A stretch of DNA of 64,000 bases from Azospirillum formosense (GTDB lineage: Bacteria > Pseudomonadota > Alphaproteobacteria > Azospirillales > Azospirillaceae). The translations under genes were made by a program, and so were the position numbers. The first letter of the stretch is position 1; the number at the start of each line of letters is the position of its first letter. This document shows positions 5,738 to 43,425 of the stretch, one piece after another. The notes beneath the pieces are model-generated. The model worked only from the letters and a program-made list of their open reading frames with translations. It was not told the origin of the DNA and made no database searches. Where the stretch lies: the NCBI RefSeq assembly GCF_040500525.1, contig NZ_CP159402.1, positions 868,001 through 932,000 on the forward strand. Reading direction: 5' to 3'.

Positions 5738-6214
5738 TCACGGTTTCGGATAAGCGACCCCGAGGATCCACCGCGGGGCCTCGGGCGGGCCGGCCCGTTC
5801 GAACACGTAGGTCACGGTCGCGCTGGTGAAGGGGGCGGCCAGGGTGCAGCGTCCCTTGTCGTCCGCGGCCTCGCAGAGCAGGGCGGGGACCTGGACGCTC
5901 AGCGTCTTGCCGAACTGGGTGCCGCCAAGCTCCTCGCCGCACAGGAGTTCGCCCGGATAGCCGGTCACCGCGGTCCATGCCGCCTCCCAGGCCCGGCGGT
6001 CGGCGAACATCGGCGTGCCGACGCTCGGCCTGGCCTCGGGCGGCGGCCCCGCACCCGGAATGTGTCGCGCGAGACGGCCGCCCTCAGCCATGTTGCGTTC
6101 GGGATCGGCGGAAAGCCGGACGCTTGGGATGTCCAGGCAGGAAGCGCTCCACGCCGGGGCGGCGAACAAGAGCAAGCCGGCGATGAGCGGTCCGGCGATC
6201 GTGAGGTTGGGCAT
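5738..6214 (-). CDS. secreted protein of unknown function
   Basis: A 158-residue protein with a Sec signal peptide (MPNLTIAGPLIAGLLLFAAPAWSA) and a mature part containing four to five cysteines. I do not recognise a family. Mature blocks include a tryptophan-rich segment RAWEAAWTAVTGYPGELLCGEELGG and a C-terminal VTYVFERAGPPEAPRWILGVAY. Possible disulfides suggest a periplasmic location. The ATG at 6214 is chosen because it gives a clean signal peptide; the frame stays open far upstream but only as antisense to the next gene. It is convergent with rarA (7 bp between stops) and divergent from the gene at 6299. Confidence 0.6.
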   Translation of the reverse strand: MPNLTIAGPLIAGLLLFAAPAWSASCLDIPSVRLSADPERNMAEGGRLARHIPGAGPPPEARPSVGTPMFADRRAWEAAWTAVTGYPGELLCGEELGGTQFGKTLSVQVPALLCEAADDKGRCTLAAPFTSATVTYVFERAGPPEAPRWILGVAYPKP

Positions 6215-37771: not shown

Positions 37772-39166
37772 TCATACGATCGACAGCATCGCGGTCTGCG
37801 GGTTGTCCAGCAGGTCGGCCAGCGTGCGCAGGCCGCGCGCCAGCTCGTCCCGGCTGTGCGGGTGGCAGAGGCCCAGCCGCACGGCGTGGGGGGCGCTGGC
37901 CCGGCCCACGGCGAACACGTCGCCGCCCGTCACCTTCACGCCGCGGCGCAGCGCCTCGGCGATGAAGTCGTCGCGCCGCCAGGGCTCGGGCAGGACCAGC
38001 CAGAGATGCTGCGCCGAAGCGTGCCCGCAGACGGCGCTGGCGGGCAGGATGGAGCGGGCGATCTGCTGGCGGGCCATGGCTTCCCCGCGCTGGGCCTCGG
38101 CGATGCGGTCGGCGCTGCCGTCTGTGATCCAGCGCGTCGCGACCTCCGGCGGCAGGGGCGGGGAGGAGTATTGCAGGGCGCGGATGACCGCCTCCACCCG
38201 CGGCACCAGGGCCGGCGGAGCGACCACATAGCCGACGCGCAGCCCGGCCGACACGCTCTTGGACAGGCTGTTCACATAGACCGTGACGTCCGGGGCGATG
38301 GCCTGGATGGGCTTCGCGTCGTGGACCAGGAAGCCGAAGACGTCGTCTTCGACCAGCACCACCCCGTAGCGGCGGGCGATGGCCGCGATCTCCACCCGCC
38401 GGGCCTGCGGCATGACGGAGGCGGTGGGGTTGTGCAGGGTCGGCACCAGATACAGCGCCTTGGGCGCCAGGCGGCGGCAGGCGCTGTCGAAACTGTCCGG
38501 CACCACGCCATGCTCGTCGATGGCAATGCCTTCCAGGTGGTAGCCCTCGATCGCGCTCAGCGTCTTCATGCCGTAGTTGGTCAGCCGCTCCGTCAGCACC
38601 ACGTCGCCGGGGCGGGCCACCGCGGCCAGCGCCACCGCCATGGCGTTCTGCGCGCCGGTGGTCAGCAGGACCGTATCGGGGGAGGCCGCCGCCCGGTGCT
38701 GCCGCGTCAGCCATTGCGCTCCGGCCGCGCGGTGGGCGGGCAGGCCGGCGTGCGGCGCGTACTCCAGCAGCGACCCCAGGTTCGGCGAGGCGCCGATGGC
38801 GGCAAGGGTGGCGCCCATCATCGGCACCGACATCGGATGCTCCGGCGTCACGACGGTCATGTTGATGACGGACGGTTCCGGCCGCGGCGTCCAGGTGAAG
38901 GGGTCGGACGGGGGCATGTGGCGCTGCCCCTGCACAAAAGTGCCGCGCCCGACCTCGCCGCCGATGAGCCCGCGCTTCTCCGCTTCCGTGTAGGCGCGGG
39001 TGATCGTCCCGACGGTGACGCCGAGGCGGTAGGCGAGGTCGCGGTGGGTGGGAAGCCGGGTGCCGGGAGCGAGCCGTCCGTTGGCGATGTCGTCGGACAG
39101 GGCGTCGGCGATGGCGCGGTAACGGGGGCCTTGCCGGCCCTCCAGATCGGGAACCCAATTTGTCAT
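37772..39166 (-). CDS. MocR-family regulator (GntR wing helix plus aminotransferase-like domain)
   Basis: A 464-residue regulator: GntR winged helix at about 15-75 (YRAIADALSDDIANGRLAPG and RDLAYRLGVTVGTITRAY) and a class-I aminotransferase-like domain. The PLP lysine is in YVNSLSKSVSAGLRVGYVV, so the cofactor site seems intact. MocR proteins usually sense an amino compound through PLP. ATG at 39166 is chosen, giving MTNWVPDL; no ribosome binding site lies before it, while a TTG twelve codons upstream would put the shared operator inside the gene. The start lies 4 bp from the shared motif at 39170. Confidence 0.9.
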   Translation of the reverse strand: MTNWVPDLEGRQGPRYRAIADALSDDIANGRLAPGTRLPTHRDLAYRLGVTVGTITRAYTEAEKRGLIGGEVGRGTFVQGQRHMPPSDPFTWTPRPEPSVINMTVVTPEHPMSVPMMGATLAAIGASPNLGSLLEYAPHAGLPAHRAAGAQWLTRQHRAAASPDTVLLTTGAQNAMAVALAAVARPGDVVLTERLTNYGMKTLSAIEGYHLEGIAIDEHGVVPDSFDSACRRLAPKALYLVPTLHNPTASVMPQARRVEIAAIARRYGVVLVEDDVFGFLVHDAKPIQAIAPDVTVYVNSLSKSVSAGLRVGYVVAPPALVPRVEAVIRALQYSSPPLPPEVATRWITDGSADRIAEAQRGEAMARQQIARSILPASAVCGHASAQHLWLVLPEPWRRDDFIAEALRRGVKVTGGDVFAVGRASAPHAVRLGLCHPHSRDELARGLRTLADLLDNPQTAMLSIV

Positions 39167-39169
39167 AGG

Positions 39170-39226
39170 GACAATGATGACATTGTGCCGATCCTCCGGC
39201 AAGTGTCACCGCATTGTCGCGATTGT
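39170..39226. promoter_or_regulatory. bipartite operator candidate A, before the MocR gene
   Basis: GACAATGATGACATTG (39170-39185) is followed 42 bp later, start to start, by CATTGTCGCGATTGT (39212-39226). ACAATG (39171-39176) and CATTGT (39181-39186) form an exact inverted repeat with a 4-bp spacer. The same two blocks occur in the same order, 44 bp apart, at 41361-41419. The repeated half-site is ATTGT/ACAAT. It lies right before the regulator's start and suggests self-control. Confidence 0.6.
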
Positions 39227-39252
39227 GTGTGTCCGGCTGCGCCGCGCGCGCG

Positions 39253-39278
39253 GGAACCCGGACGGCCAAGCGGGCGTT
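39253..39278 (+). promoter_or_regulatory. EcfG-type (general stress) promoter of the DUF2892 gene
   Basis: GGAAC at 39253-39257 and CGTT at 39275-39278 are 17 bp apart, an exact match to the alphaproteobacterial general stress response consensus. The DUF2892 start is 69 bp downstream. Dependence on EcfG is inferred. Confidence 0.65.
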
Positions 39279-39346
39279 GCAGTCAGGACCGCCCGGCGCT
39301 GCTTCGGCATCCCTTTCGCGCCGGGCACAGCCGGGAGAATTCAGGC

Positions 39347-39673
39347 ATGAGCGCCGAAAACGCCATCCGACACACCTATGACCGCTTCTTTGGAGGCGCG
39401 CAGAATCTCGGGCCGCTGGAACGCGCCGTGTCCACCGGCCTCGGCCTCGTCATGGCGGCGGGCGGCGTGCGCCGCGGCGCCGACGTGCGGGGCGCCATCA
39501 TGGGGCTGGCCGGCGCCGCCCTGGTGGCCCGCGGCATGAGCGGGCACTGCCCGCTGAAGGCCATGGTGGCCGACGAGGACCACGATCGCCTCTCCGGCCC
39601 GCGCTCCGAGCGCTACAGCCCGGGCGAGGGGCCGCTGGAGCGCACGCCGGCCCGCACCGGCTCCTATTCCTGA
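39347..39673 (+). CDS. DUF2892-type small membrane protein
   Basis: A 108-residue protein with a hydrophobic core (LGLVMAAGGVRRGADVRGAIMGLAGAALVARGM) and the GHCPL motif typical of DUF2892/inner membrane protein YgaP-like tails. The extended C-terminus (about 75-108) is charged and serine-rich. Role unknown; relatives often occur in stress-related loci. The start at 39347 has GGGAG about 10 nt upstream. An exact EcfG promoter match precedes it. Confidence 0.75.
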   Translation: MSAENAIRHTYDRFFGGAQNLGPLERAVSTGLGLVMAAGGVRRGADVRGAIMGLAGAALVARGMSGHCPLKAMVADEDHDRLSGPRSERYSPGEGPLERTPARTGSYS

Positions 39674-39700
39674 CGGAACGGGACGGTCACGGAGTGACGG

Positions 39701-40039
39701 TCACGAGGATGAGGAAGCGGCGCGGCGCCGCCGCTTCCATTCCTTCCAACGCCGCTCGCCGCGCACCAGCGCGCGGTTGATCGGCGGGCGAAGAAACGGA
39801 ACGTCGTAGGCGAGCAGCACGAGGCCGAGAGGCAGCATCCAGATGCCCAGCACGGGCAGGAAGCTGAGCAGCCCGCCGACAATCAGCAGCAGCCCGGCGG
39901 GGACGCGCACCCAGGTCGCCCGCGGCTCGCGGAGCCAGGCCAGCACCCGCGCCATGGAGTCGGGAAGCTTCTCCTGGATGCGATCCACCCGCCGCTCGAG
40001 GCGTCTGTGGTGCTGGTCGCTCAACGCGGCACTCTCCAT
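39701..40039 (-). CDS. small membrane protein, function unknown
   Basis: A 112-residue protein. A helical basic head (HHRRLERRVDRIQEKLPDSMARVLAWLREP) leads to two closely spaced hydrophobic segments (GLLLIVGGLLSFLPVLGIWMLPLGLVLLAYDVPFL) and a very basic tail (RRWKEWKRRRRAASSSS). I recognise no family name with confidence; the two-helix core resembles tryptophan-rich sensory or PGPGW-type small proteins. It is convergent with the DUF2892 gene (27 bp). Confidence 0.6.
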   Translation of the reverse strand: MESAALSDQHHRRLERRVDRIQEKLPDSMARVLAWLREPRATWVRVPAGLLLIVGGLLSFLPVLGIWMLPLGLVLLAYDVPFLRPPINRALVRGERRWKEWKRRRRAASSSS

Positions 40040-40465
40040 CTTGTCGATCCGGCCCTGATGGTTGTCGTTCGGCTGCGGCGGCGCCCCGGATCACCGGACC
40101 GGCCGCTCCCAAGCCGCCATATGGGAACCGCCAGGCGTGTTCCAAGCTCCCGTCCGTGTGGAACCCGCGAGGCGGCGGGTCTCTTGAAAGGCGTCGGCCA
40201 CACGGCCAACTATTAGGGCAATCAGGGTCCGGGCCCCTCTGGCAGCCGAGTCGCCGGTCACGAGGTCGGGGGCTGCGATGTCGGATCCCTTCATCTGCTT
40301 TTGCGCCGACGGGCGTGACCGCATCTGGAGGGTCTTTCGACGGACAGCGCAGCCGTGCCTTCCCGCCGCCGCTTGTCCGCGGCCGATCCGCCGCCCGCTT
40401 TGCCGCCGGGGGACTCCGCCGGTCTAAGGCCCGCCGCTAGAGGCTTGAACGAGGGAGTTTTCGCA
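40040..40465. other. 426-bp intergenic region before the Bax inhibitor-1-like gene
   Basis: No gene or RNA is supported. On the plus strand TTGAAA (40184-40189) could be a -35 box, but only weak -10 partners (AACTAT at 40208-40213) follow. The GAGGGAG ribosome binding site of the next gene lies at 40451-40457. The rest shows only general GC-rich inverted repeats. Confidence 0.3.
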
Positions 40466-41191
40466 ATGTTCGACCAGTATCCCAACCAGAGTCGTTGGGG
40501 CGCGGGCGCCGCGGGCGTGGACCGTGCGGCGTTCGACGAGGGCCTGCGCAAGCACATGCTGCGGGTCTACAACTTCATGATGCTCGGCCTTGGCGTGACG
40601 GGGCTGGTGGCGCTGTTCGTGGCGAGCACGCCGGCGCTGTATGTGCCGATCTTCACGACCCCGCTGAAGTGGGTGGTGATGCTGGCGCCGCTGGCCTTCA
40701 TCATGGTGCTGTCCTTCCGCTTCCACGCGATGTCGGCCAGTGCGCTGCAGGGTCTGTTCTGGGCCTTCTGCGCGGTGATGGGCGTGTCGATGGCGTCGAT
40801 CTTCCTGGTCTTCACCGGGGCCAGCGTGGCGCGGGTGTTCTTCATCACCGCGGCGATGTTCGCGGCGATGAGCCTGTGGGGCTACACCACCAAGGCCGAC
40901 CTGTCGAAGATGGGCTCGTTCCTGATGATGGGCCTGATCGGCATCGTCATCGCCAGCCTGGTCAACATCTTCGTCGGCTCCAGCGCGCTGCAGTTCGCCA
41001 TCTCGGTCATCGGCGTGGTCATCTTCACCGGCCTGACCGCCTACGACACCCAGCGCATCAAGGAGGAGTACGCCGAGGGCTACGGACACGAGACCAACAC
41101 CAAGCTCGCCGTCATGGGCGCCCTCTCCCTCTACCTCAACTTCATCAACCTCTTCCAGATGCTCCTCCAGCTCATGGGCAACCGCGAGTAA
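40466..41191 (+). CDS. Bax inhibitor-1/YccA family membrane protein
   Basis: A 241-residue inner-membrane protein with seven hydrophobic helices, of the BI-1/YccA/TMBIM family. In E. coli YccA modulates the FtsH protease, and other members leak Ca2+. The family blocks are FMMLGLGVTGLVALFVAS, TAAMFAAMSLWGYTTKADLSKMGSFLMMGLIGI and FTGLTAYDTQRIKEEYAEGYG, followed by LAVMGALSLYLNFINLFQMLLQLMGNRE. The start at 40466 has GAGGGAG 8 nt before it. A strong terminator follows. Confidence 0.95.
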   Translation: MFDQYPNQSRWGAGAAGVDRAAFDEGLRKHMLRVYNFMMLGLGVTGLVALFVASTPALYVPIFTTPLKWVVMLAPLAFIMVLSFRFHAMSASALQGLFWAFCAVMGVSMASIFLVFTGASVARVFFITAAMFAAMSLWGYTTKADLSKMGSFLMMGLIGIVIASLVNIFVGSSALQFAISVIGVVIFTGLTAYDTQRIKEEYAEGYGHETNTKLAVMGALSLYLNFINLFQMLLQLMGNRE

Positions 41192-41227
41192 CGGGACCGC
41201 ATCGGGCGCATCACAAGCGCTTTGCCG

Positions 41228-41257
41228 GGCCGGCCGCGTTCCGCGGCCGGCCTTTTT
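41228..41257 (+). terminator. intrinsic terminator after the BI-1 gene
   Basis: An 11-bp perfect GC stem (41228-41238 with 41242-41252), loop TTC, then TTTTT. It cleanly separates the BI-1 gene from the DUF1127 gene cluster. Confidence 0.93.
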
Positions 41258-41360
41258 CATGCCCGGAGGGTGAGGTCGCCTTGGATCGGGATCGTCCAAA
41301 CGGATGTGTCACCGGTGGGTGTGGCTGCCGGGATACATCCGACATCGGAAATGTAATGGT

Positions 41361-41419
41361 GACAATAATGACATTGACCGGGACGATTGCGCGGACATAA
41401 TCGCCATTGTCTCGATTGT
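41361..41419. promoter_or_regulatory. bipartite operator candidate B, before DUF1127-GNAT-PhzF
   Basis: GACAATAATGACATTG (41361-41376) differs from copy A by one base in 16, and CATTGTCTCGATTGT (41405-41419) by one in 15. Their start-to-start distance is 44 bp, against 42 in copy A. It lies 35-93 bp upstream of the DUF1127 ATG, in the promoter region. Binding by the MocR-type regulator 2.2 kb away is inferred from the shared motif. Confidence 0.6.
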
Positions 41420-41453: not shown

Positions 41454-41702
41454 ATGCGCACCACAGAAGCGACCCGGTCGTCCGGATCGTCCTCGTTCAC
41501 GACCGTCTTCAAGGTCATCGCGCGCGCCCTTTCCGTCGGCATCCGCCCCGTCTGGCTCGTGATGGAGGCCGGCCTGAACGGCTATGAGCGGTGGCGGCAG
41601 CGGCAGGCGCTGATGCGGCTGGACGACCATCTGCTGAAGGACATCGGCGTGTCCCGCGCCGACGTGGACAGCGAAGTCAACAAGCCCTTCTGGCGGAGCT
41701 GA
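41454..41702 (+). CDS. DUF1127-domain small protein
   Basis: An 82-residue protein with a C-terminal DUF1127 domain: YERWRQRQALMRLDDHLLKDIGVSRADVDSEV. Short arginine-rich DUF1127 proteins in alphaproteobacteria affect RNA turnover and phosphate or carbon metabolism in some species. The longer head here (about 35 residues) has a hydrophobic patch. AAGGAGG precedes the ATG. The GNAT gene begins 4 bp after the stop, so they are one unit. Confidence 0.87.
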   Translation: MRTTEATRSSGSSSFTTVFKVIARALSVGIRPVWLVMEAGLNGYERWRQRQALMRLDDHLLKDIGVSRADVDSEVNKPFWRS

Positions 41703-41706
41703 GCGG

Positions 41707-42123
41707 ATGAGCGCCGATGCGATCCTCTACGCCGTCGAGCCCGACCTGACCGCCGACGCCTTCATCGACGTGCTGCACCGCTCCGGGCTGGCCGAGCGCC
41801 GCCCCGTAGCGGACCGCCCGCGCGTGGAGGCGATGCTGCGCAACGCCGGCCTGATCGTGACCGCCCGAAACGTGGACGGCGATCTGGTCGGCGTCGCGCG
41901 GTCCGTCACCGATTTCGCCTTCTGCTGCTACCTGTCGGACCTCGCCGTCGACCGCGCCTGTCAGGGGCGCGGCATCGGCAAGGAGCTGATGCGCCGCACC
42001 CGCGCCGCGGTGGGGGAGGGCGTGACCTGCCTTCTCCTGTCGGCGCCCAAGGCGGTCAGCTTCTACGAGGCGGCGGGGATGGAGCGGCACGCCCAGGCGT
42101 TCCTGTTCACCGAGAAACCCTAA
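41707..42123 (+). CDS. GNAT-family N-acetyltransferase
   Basis: A 138-residue acetyl-CoA-dependent transferase. The acetyl-CoA loop is DRACQGRGIGKELMRRT (R/Q-x-x-G-x-G/A), preceded by the beta-4 strand CCYLSDLAVD and followed by LLLSAPKAVSFYEAAGM. The acceptor amine is unknown. It lies 4 bp after DUF1127 and 9 bp before phzF; the trio probably shares the promoter with operator B. Confidence 0.9.
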   Translation: MSADAILYAVEPDLTADAFIDVLHRSGLAERRPVADRPRVEAMLRNAGLIVTARNVDGDLVGVARSVTDFAFCCYLSDLAVDRACQGRGIGKELMRRTRAAVGEGVTCLLLSAPKAVSFYEAAGMERHAQAFLFTEKP

Positions 42124-42132
42124 GGAGGCACC

Positions 42133-42927
42133 GTGCGCCTTCCCCTGTATCAGGTCGATGCCTTCGCGGACGCGGTGTTCGCGGGCAACCCGGCGGCGGT
42201 CGTGCCGCTTGAGGACTGGCTTCCCGACGCGACGCTCCAGGCCATCGCGGCGGAAAACAACCTGGCGGAAACCGCCTTCTTCGTCCGCCGCGGCGACGGT
42301 TACGAGATCCGCTGGTTCACCCCCACGGTCGAGGTGGATCTGTGCGGCCACGCCACGCTGGCCTCGGCCTTCGTCATCGCGACGATGCTGGAGTGGGGCT
42401 GCCCGCGCATCGATTTCGCCACCCGGGAAGCCGGAACCCTCAGCGTCACCCGCAACGGTGACTTCTACACGCTGGATTTCCCGAGCCGCCCGCCGGAACC
42501 GTTGGCGGAGCCGCCGGCCGGCCTGCTCGACGCGCTGGGCGGACCGCCGCCGACGGCGGTGCTGAAGGCGCGCGACCTCCTGGTCGTCTACGAGGACGAG
42601 GCGACCGTGCGCGCCCTGGCGCCCGACATGAGCGCCCTGGCCCGGCTGGAGGATTTCTACGCCGTCATCGTGACGGCGCCGGGCAGCGGCGGCGTTGACG
42701 TCGTTTCCCGCTTCTTCGCGCCGGCCCAGGGGATTCCCGAAGACCCGGTGACCGGCTCCGCCCATTGCACGCTGACCCCTTATTGGGCGCGGCGGCTGGG
42801 CAAGGAGCGGCTGAAGGCCCGGCAGGTCTCGGCCCGTGGTGGCGCGCTGTCCTGCGAACTGGCGGGCGACCGCGTGAAGATCGCCGGGAAAGCGGTTCTC
42901 TATATGGATGGCGCCATCTACATTTAG
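42133..42927 (+). CDS. PhzF-family isomerase/epimerase-like protein
   Basis: A 264-residue protein with the two-fold PhzF/diaminopimelate epimerase-like fold. The catalytic Glu lies in ENNLAETAFFV; VDLCGHATLASAFV and GIPEDPVTGSAHCTL are the other signature blocks. These enzymes act on amino-acid-like or aromatic acids; the substrate here is unknown. AAGGAGG lies 7 nt before the start. With an acetyltransferase and a PLP-type regulator nearby, an amino-acid-related substrate is plausible. Confidence 0.9.
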   Translation: MRLPLYQVDAFADAVFAGNPAAVVPLEDWLPDATLQAIAAENNLAETAFFVRRGDGYEIRWFTPTVEVDLCGHATLASAFVIATMLEWGCPRIDFATREAGTLSVTRNGDFYTLDFPSRPPEPLAEPPAGLLDALGGPPPTAVLKARDLLVVYEDEATVRALAPDMSALARLEDFYAVIVTAPGSGGVDVVSRFFAPAQGIPEDPVTGSAHCTLTPYWARRLGKERLKARQVSARGGALSCELAGDRVKIAGKAVLYMDGAIYI

Positions 42928-42969: not shown

Positions 42970-43425
42970 ATGGCGGGGCGATATTTCGAGGATTTCCGCG
43001 CTGGTGACGTGATCGACACCGAAGGGGCGACGGTCACCGACAGCCAGATCATGGATTTCGCCCAGCGCTTCGACCCGCAGCCCTTCCACATGGACGCGGT
43101 GGCCGCCGCGGAGGGGCCGTTCGGCGGGCTGATCGCCAGCGGTTTCCACACCCTGTCCCTGACCTTCCGCCTGTTCCGCGACACCGGGGCCATCACCGGC
43201 ACCAGCCTGGGCGGCTCTGGCGGCGACGAACTGCGCTGGCTGCGCCCGGTGCGGCCCGGCGACACGCTGCGCGTCCGGGTGGAGGTGCTGGAGGCCATCC
43301 CGCACCGCCGCGGCGACCGCGGCACGGTGCGGCTGGCCTACACCACGCTGAACCAGCATGGCGAGGCGGTGATGACCATCACCCTGAACCACATCGTGGC
43401 GACCCGCAGCGTTCCCGCGGAATAG
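42970..43425 (+). CDS. MaoC-like hot-dog dehydratase
   Basis: A 151-residue R-specific enoyl-CoA hydratase-like protein. The hot-dog fold core is GRYFEDFRAGDVIDTEGATVTDSQIMDFAQRFDPQPFHMD, with the catalytic D-x4-H (DPQPFH), then LIASGFHTLSLTFRLF. The substrate acyl group cannot be inferred. It starts 42 bp after phzF and may belong to the same transcript. Confidence 0.9.
   Translation: MAGRYFEDFRAGDVIDTEGATVTDSQIMDFAQRFDPQPFHMDAVAAAEGPFGGLIASGFHTLSLTFRLFRDTGAITGTSLGGSGGDELRWLRPVRPGDTLRVRVEVLEAIPHRRGDRGTVRLAYTTLNQHGEAVMTITLNHIVATRSVPAE

Follow-up and report, generated by a model that had tools for sequence, protein, structure and literature searches.

Self-control is known for GabR of Bacillus subtilis, whose boxes differ from those at the mocR gene described here. 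The two regulators have an identical two-domain architecture (match to 4n0b at 6.2e-13), but no GABA gene stands among the annotated neighbours of mocR in the window, by which we mean the whole 64,000-nucleotide stretch of Azospirillum formosense DNA that was analysed. The cluster compared here encodes a DUF1127 protein (a family that we take to be the same as COG5457), a GNAT acetyltransferase, a PhzF-family isomerase and a MaoC-like dehydratase. In 2016 Suvorova and Rodionov (PMC5320631) predicted MocR regulons that combine multi-box operators with genes of the COG5457, PhzF and GNAT families; the available part of that study describes operators of two to four boxes, direct and inverted, a frequent occurrence of COG5457 (there called YjjS-related) in MocR regulons, and PdxQ regulons whose members include COG384 PhzF-related proteins, RimI-family GNATs and DMT transporters. 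Multi-box operators and COG5457, PhzF-related and GNAT genes are, on this partial basis, common to the window's cluster and to PdxQ and other MocR regulons, although the cluster has no pdx gene, whereas B6 genes (pdxO, pdxH) controlled through one common site are a trait of PdxQ-type regulons. The exact set of mocR with duf1127-gnat-phzF-maoC does not appear in the portion of text at hand (PMC5320631), and in the open-access literature searched no paper was found that names PhzF together with DUF1127, or DUF1127 together with Azospirillum. A first-pass annotation of this DNA had called the pathway unstudied, which overlooks that its type of regulon had been predicted already (PMC5320631, as far as available); the regulator-operator pair belongs to a known kind of MocR regulon. 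A further relative is EnuR, a repressor with predicted operators over the sigma-70 core promoter, the EnuR/EutR consensus being ATTGTnnnnnnACAAT (PMC8739950, in its accessible part). The ATTGT half-site of EnuR, EutR and EhuR recurs in the boxes of the window and EhuR is the closest NCBIfam model for its MocR protein, whereas the spacing differs, with ATTGT-N7-ACAAT in loci of other Alphaproteobacteria such as L077 and L111 against N6 in that consensus.

The window holds a promoter/operator of about 66 bp in two copies of identical orientation (39161-39226 and 41352-41419), one at mocR and one at duf1127 (Table 1). Two blocks had been reported in each copy, with one mismatch per block pair and start-to-start distances of 42 (mocR copy) and 44 (duf1127 copy), and recomputation returned the same positions, mismatches and distances. 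The likeness nevertheless begins 9 bases earlier than reported, at 39161 and 41352, and the copy described as abutting the mocR start, while it does adjoin the gene, includes the start codon in its extended form.

Table 1. Coordinates of the two-copy site and of the genes and signals around it, numbered from the first base of the window
Feature	Position	Strand	Remarks
mocR	37772-39166	-	464 aa; GntR-type DNA-binding domain fused to aminotransferase-like PLP domain
Left core TGTCATAGGGACAAT, mocR copy	39161-39175		Overlaps mocR start codon (39164-39166)
Block 1 (GACAATrATGACATTG), mocR copy	39170-39185		Motif match
Likely mocR -35, TTGCCG	39197-39202	-	By eye; CAAG stretch conserved in mocR alignment
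Block 2 (CATTGTCkCGATTGT), mocR copy	39212-39226		Two ATTGT boxes 9 bp apart
Terminator-like hairpin	41227-41253	+	12 pairs (11 G-C), 3' of Bax1-I gene
Near-palindrome ACATCCGACATCGGAAATGT	41335-41354		Just upstream of left core; not an ATTGT box
Left core TGTAATGGTGACAAT, duf1127 copy	41352-41366		Pattern in 37/37 genus genomes
Block 1, duf1127 copy	41361-41376		Motif match
duf1127 promoter, TTGACC-16-CATAAT	41374-41401	+	-35 at 41374-41379, -10 at 41396-41401
Block 2, duf1127 copy	41405-41419		Over expected transcription start, inferred from -10
duf1127	41454-41702	+	82 aa; Pfam DUF1127 2.6e-11
GNAT acetyltransferase	41707-42123	+	Pfam Acetyltransf_10 3.2e-11
PhzF-family isomerase	42133-42927	+	Pfam PhzC-PhzF 7.1e-53
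MaoC-like dehydratase	42970-43425	+	Probable last operon gene; Pfam MaoC 4.3e-21

Aligned with each other the two copies score 20, whereas the 63,934 placements tried across the window on both strands at step 2 nowhere exceed 1 outside these copies. Block 1 has no third match in the 64-kb window at up to 3 mismatches, and block 2 has two extra matches at 3 mismatches, one of them overlapping the copy at 41405. Throughout the 6,104,586-base genome, mismatch-free matches to both blocks occur at these two places only; widespread unrelated copies, which the first-pass annotation had itself named as a result that would tell against its idea, did not turn up in this genome. Weaker matches number 47 for block 1 (2-3 mismatches) and 4 for block 2 (2 mismatches), and the left core has three additional matches at 2 mismatches. 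A partner block with fewer than 4 mismatches within 100 bases was absent at all weak matches checked (8 of the 47 for block 1, all 4 for block 2), and these 12 of 51 yielded no additional regulon member. The likeness of the two copies is real and far from chance. Accidental similarity, or pure core-promoter resemblance without shared control, could appeal to the partial identity of block 1 at duf1127 with the -35 and to the fact that TGTCAT at mocR is coding, but it was rejected on the alignment scores and on the genome-wide uniqueness of the perfect blocks, and with the conservation described below (37 genomes, of which 19 have the genes unlinked) it deserves almost no credence. The same two points do limit how conservation is read: regulator binding need not account for all the conservation of block 1 at 41361, part of which is taken up by the likely -35, and as TGTCAT is also the coding start of mocR (Met-Thr), its conservation is not independent evidence.

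The mocR product has both domains expected of a MocR regulator (Pfam GntR 3e-15, Aminotran_1_2 1.7e-23), and Lys303, which we take to be the putative PLP lysine, is invariant among 11 aligned proteins; repeated direct and inverted boxes, a further MocR trait, can be recognized near its own gene. Its best NCBIfam model, EhuR (NF052286), gives 477.4 bits against a cut-off of 480, which leaves the protein just outside EnuR/EhuR. That near miss, together with the ATTGT half-site (PMC8739950, accessible part), might suggest a regulator of the EhuR/EnuR type in charge of ectoine breakdown by the cluster, but this is highly improbable, no ectoine enzyme being found among the eight annotated window proteins. 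An ectoine regulon was rejected on the EutB model, the sole ectoine model searched genome-wide, which reached at best 243.7 against a cut-off of 413.35. The genome holds 15 matches to the regulator, itself included, among them a MocR paralogue on contig C4 (L224, 264400-267300; 40%) with ATTGTatggATTGTCAAT upstream.

Relative to transcription, the order of the elements at mocR is reversed, with the left core over the likely -10 and start codon and block 2 upstream of the -35. The by-eye reading takes CATCAT at 39174-39179 as the -10, which would make the mRNA leaderless or nearly so, and a promoter scan gives another pair, GTGACA-16-CACAAT at 39209-39182. In the stretch 39164-39202 the start codon lies inside the operator, and translation of mocR may begin on a leaderless mRNA.

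Terminator-like sites in the region number two, against a mean of 1.1 in shuffles, and the hairpin listed in Table 1 would set the Bax1-I gene apart from the duf1127 operon. The duf1127 promoter has 10 of 12 consensus bases (two promoter-like sites found, versus 0.2 in shuffles), and the four genes that follow are separated by 4, 9 and 42 bases. The isomerase is placed in the PhzF family by the PhzC-PhzF model and by Glu46, presumably the catalytic Glu, which is invariant among 12 aligned proteins; the closest solved structures are 1s7j and 4dun. At this promoter the left core lies directly upstream of the -35, a place typical of an activator, while at mocR, by contrast, it covers the likely -10 and start codon. 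The regulator might, in a GabR-like manner, activate duf1127 and repress itself only. We regard this as possible but doubtful, because block 2 lies over the expected duf1127 transcription start and EnuR, the closest family model, is a repressor with predicted core-promoter operators (PMC8739950, accessible part).

Conservation was followed through 37 genomes of the genus, the window's own and 36 others, which are related, so that the counts below are not independent trials. A mocR match at 67% identity or more is found in all 37, and so is the duf1127-phzF cluster (interrupted by contig ends in G036); in two named Azospirillum loci (L118 and L121), phzF is at 92 and 95% to that of the window and mocR at 98%. 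The cluster lies near mocR in 15 genomes, is separated from it by an assembly break in three and is found elsewhere in 19, either on a different contig or, in G007 and G010, at a distance above 1 Mb within one contig. These 19 retain the promoter, and the link would there work in trans. Left core (37/37), TTGACC (35/37), the -35/-10 pattern (36/37) and ATTGTCTCGAT (31/37, or 35 when relaxed) recur at the duf1127 promoters. Upstream of mocR, ATTGTC is present in 35 genomes and ACAA beside the start in 31, with no ACAA box at the annotated start in G010; the left core at mocR counts 37/37, a figure inflated by the coding TGTCAT part. A matrix built from the duf1127 promoters alone recovers block 2 at mocR in 33 of the 37 genomes (p<0.05, uncorrected; borderline in G003 at 0.050) and misses it in G028, G022, G023 and G025; most unlinked genomes show a degenerate second box in the mocR copy of block 2. 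The postulated link that joins this MocR to its own promoter and to the duf1127-phzF cluster is thus strengthened by co-occurrence in 37/37 and by promoter elements kept at both genes. It persists in the 19 genomes where the genes are parted, and in ten outgroup loci the genes stand back to back. The make-up of the cluster needs qualification: mocR and duf1127-phzF are constant, but gnat was detected in 34 of the 37 clusters (not in G010, G022 and G028) and maoC near 20 of them, with 17 in which it was undetected, the window counting among those with both. The sequences themselves establish the two sites and how well these are conserved, as well as the recurrent pairing of the genes.

Beside the two copies, the duf1127 promoter carries the near-palindrome ACATCCGACATCGGAAATGT, the sole match in its own genome at up to 3 mismatches, and one found at the duf1127 promoter with at most 2 mismatches in 36 of the 37 genus genomes (not found in G010). 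Nine second sites, mostly weaker, occur in the genus genomes. Among the eight inspected, six precede what by eye is one common frame, a major-facilitator transporter where tested (L209), and two an alpha/beta hydrolase-like frame, as tested in L213; outside the genus there are two further places at 2 mismatches. A second regulator, besides MocR, may act on the duf1127 operon through this element.

In other Alphaproteobacteria, mocR and a gene of the cluster stand back to back at ten loci (G043 supplying two): the partner is duf1127 in eight (L077, L078, L111, L113, L130, L133, L153 and L186) and phzF in two (L112 and L171), at distances of 58-198 bases by estimated starts. The exact 15-mer TGTCATGGTGACAAT stands at the likely mocR start in six of the ten and with one mismatch in L113 and L153, while in L130 and L078 the best match lies elsewhere; it is followed, exact or with one mismatch, by ATTGAC at duf1127 -35 spacing in 5/8 outgroup loci. 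Among the 80 named PhzF loci listed, at least 13 are matched by one or more of the queries for mocR, duf1127, gnat and maoC. In a maximum-likelihood tree of the regulators (first residue set to M, stops as X), the 13 genus orthologues included form one clade (100/100) with L130 as sister (99/98), and the closest regulator from outside the genus in this tree thus belongs to a locus among the ten with back-to-back genes. Nine genus paralogues form a separate clade, the remaining ones being unplaced by the tree. The phzF-adjacent outgroup regulators are not one clade (5 changes needed, with paralogues L221 and L229 falling among them), and this scatter means that orthology beyond L130 is not firm. 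In L130, the palindrome ATTGTCATGATGACAAT lies directly before phzF (5964-5978).

These data bear on whether both sites might belong to another regulator, for example a MocR paralogue, with mocR as merely one of its targets. The 15 matches to the regulator in the genome speak for this, cross-binding is possible for the L224 paralogue, whose upstream ATTGTatggATTGTC repeat has ATTGT boxes 9 bp apart as in block 2, and an extra palindrome is conserved at duf1127. However, the sites follow this mocR orthologue through the 37 genomes and are present in outgroups with an adjacent MocR, and the nearest genus paralogues (nine of those in the tree) fall into a separate clade, all of which makes a foreign regulator improbable.

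How two copies arose is suggested by their form, as they look like a duplicated two-way promoter. In three genus genomes (L056, L062 and L074) both lie within one intergenic region of 252-466 bases. The 15-mer TGTCATGGTGACAAT is present in 4 of the 37 genus duf1127 promoters and TGTAATGGTGACAAT in 30, which would fit a relict of an earlier mocR start codon, although TGTCATGGTGACAAT is near-palindromic and selection on the site could also explain its presence. We infer a tandem duplication of the two-way promoter, followed by gene insertion, as in this window, or by relocation.

Hints at function come from the neighbours of phzF. A gene for a PLP enzyme lies between gnat and phzF in 18 of the 37 genomes, namely G003 and 17 of the 19 unlinked ones (one of these loci being cut by a contig end). 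It resembles threo-3-hydroxyaspartate ammonia-lyase (L102:3493-4515, 16 other unlinked loci and L073:5733-6698), and in the four of the 18 loci scored against the threo-3-hydroxy-L-aspartate ammonia-lyase model it exceeds the cut-off of 452 (L102 513.9, L107 507.8, L098 515.9, L105 500.2). This gene is absent from the window's cluster, and no close copy exists anywhere in the genome to which the window belongs (best match 44%). The phzF region of G037 holds an EamA transporter, a GNAT and a tartrate dehydrogenase (548.7, cut-off 470.4). Neighbouring enzymes would thus point to four-carbon hydroxy or beta-hydroxy-amino acids, and the ammonia-lyase-like gene in 18 of the 37 clusters is a hint at the inducer.

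The best joint explanation, to which we assign a probability of roughly 0.8, is that both copies are operators of this MocR, derived from a duplicated two-way promoter, with repression lifted by an amino compound; probably this is a real but ordinary self-controlling switch. The MocR would control its own gene via one copy and duf1127-gnat-phzF-maoC via the other. In the ancestor, mocR and duf1127/phzF would have stood back to back around one two-way promoter, whose tandem duplication would have given each gene a copy and made the genes separable later. A MocR dimer would occupy the ATTGT-type boxes of the left core and of block 2 and so hold the two promoters low. At duf1127 the left core lies next to the -35 and block 2 at the expected transcription start; at mocR the left core spans the -10 and the start codon, and block 2 is situated upstream of the -35. 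The cluster would be switched on by an amino compound that forms a Schiff base with bound PLP and alters binding; threo-3-hydroxyaspartate, or another beta-hydroxy amino acid like it, is a plausible candidate. That this MocR binds, that the promoter was duplicated, that repression is the default state and which compound induces are thus deductions from the arrangement of sites and genes. A fuller picture is offered tentatively: a tandem-duplicated two-way promoter with reciprocal relics (the former mocR start codon as TGTmATGG at duf1127, and a former -35 as ATTGtnCC in the mocR operator), a regulator that was freed and moved to other parts of the genome with the trans link kept, and an inducible regulon for breakdown or detoxification of threo-3-hydroxyaspartate-like compounds in which PhzF would be an isomerase.

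For an uncharacterised MocR regulator, the analysis yields a target set, predicted binding sites and a guess at the inducer, all of them testable, and it provides a lead to the function of DUF1127 and of PhzF proteins outside phenazine clusters. The course from a shared site through a doubled site to parted genes would exemplify how a local regulator turns into a trans regulator.
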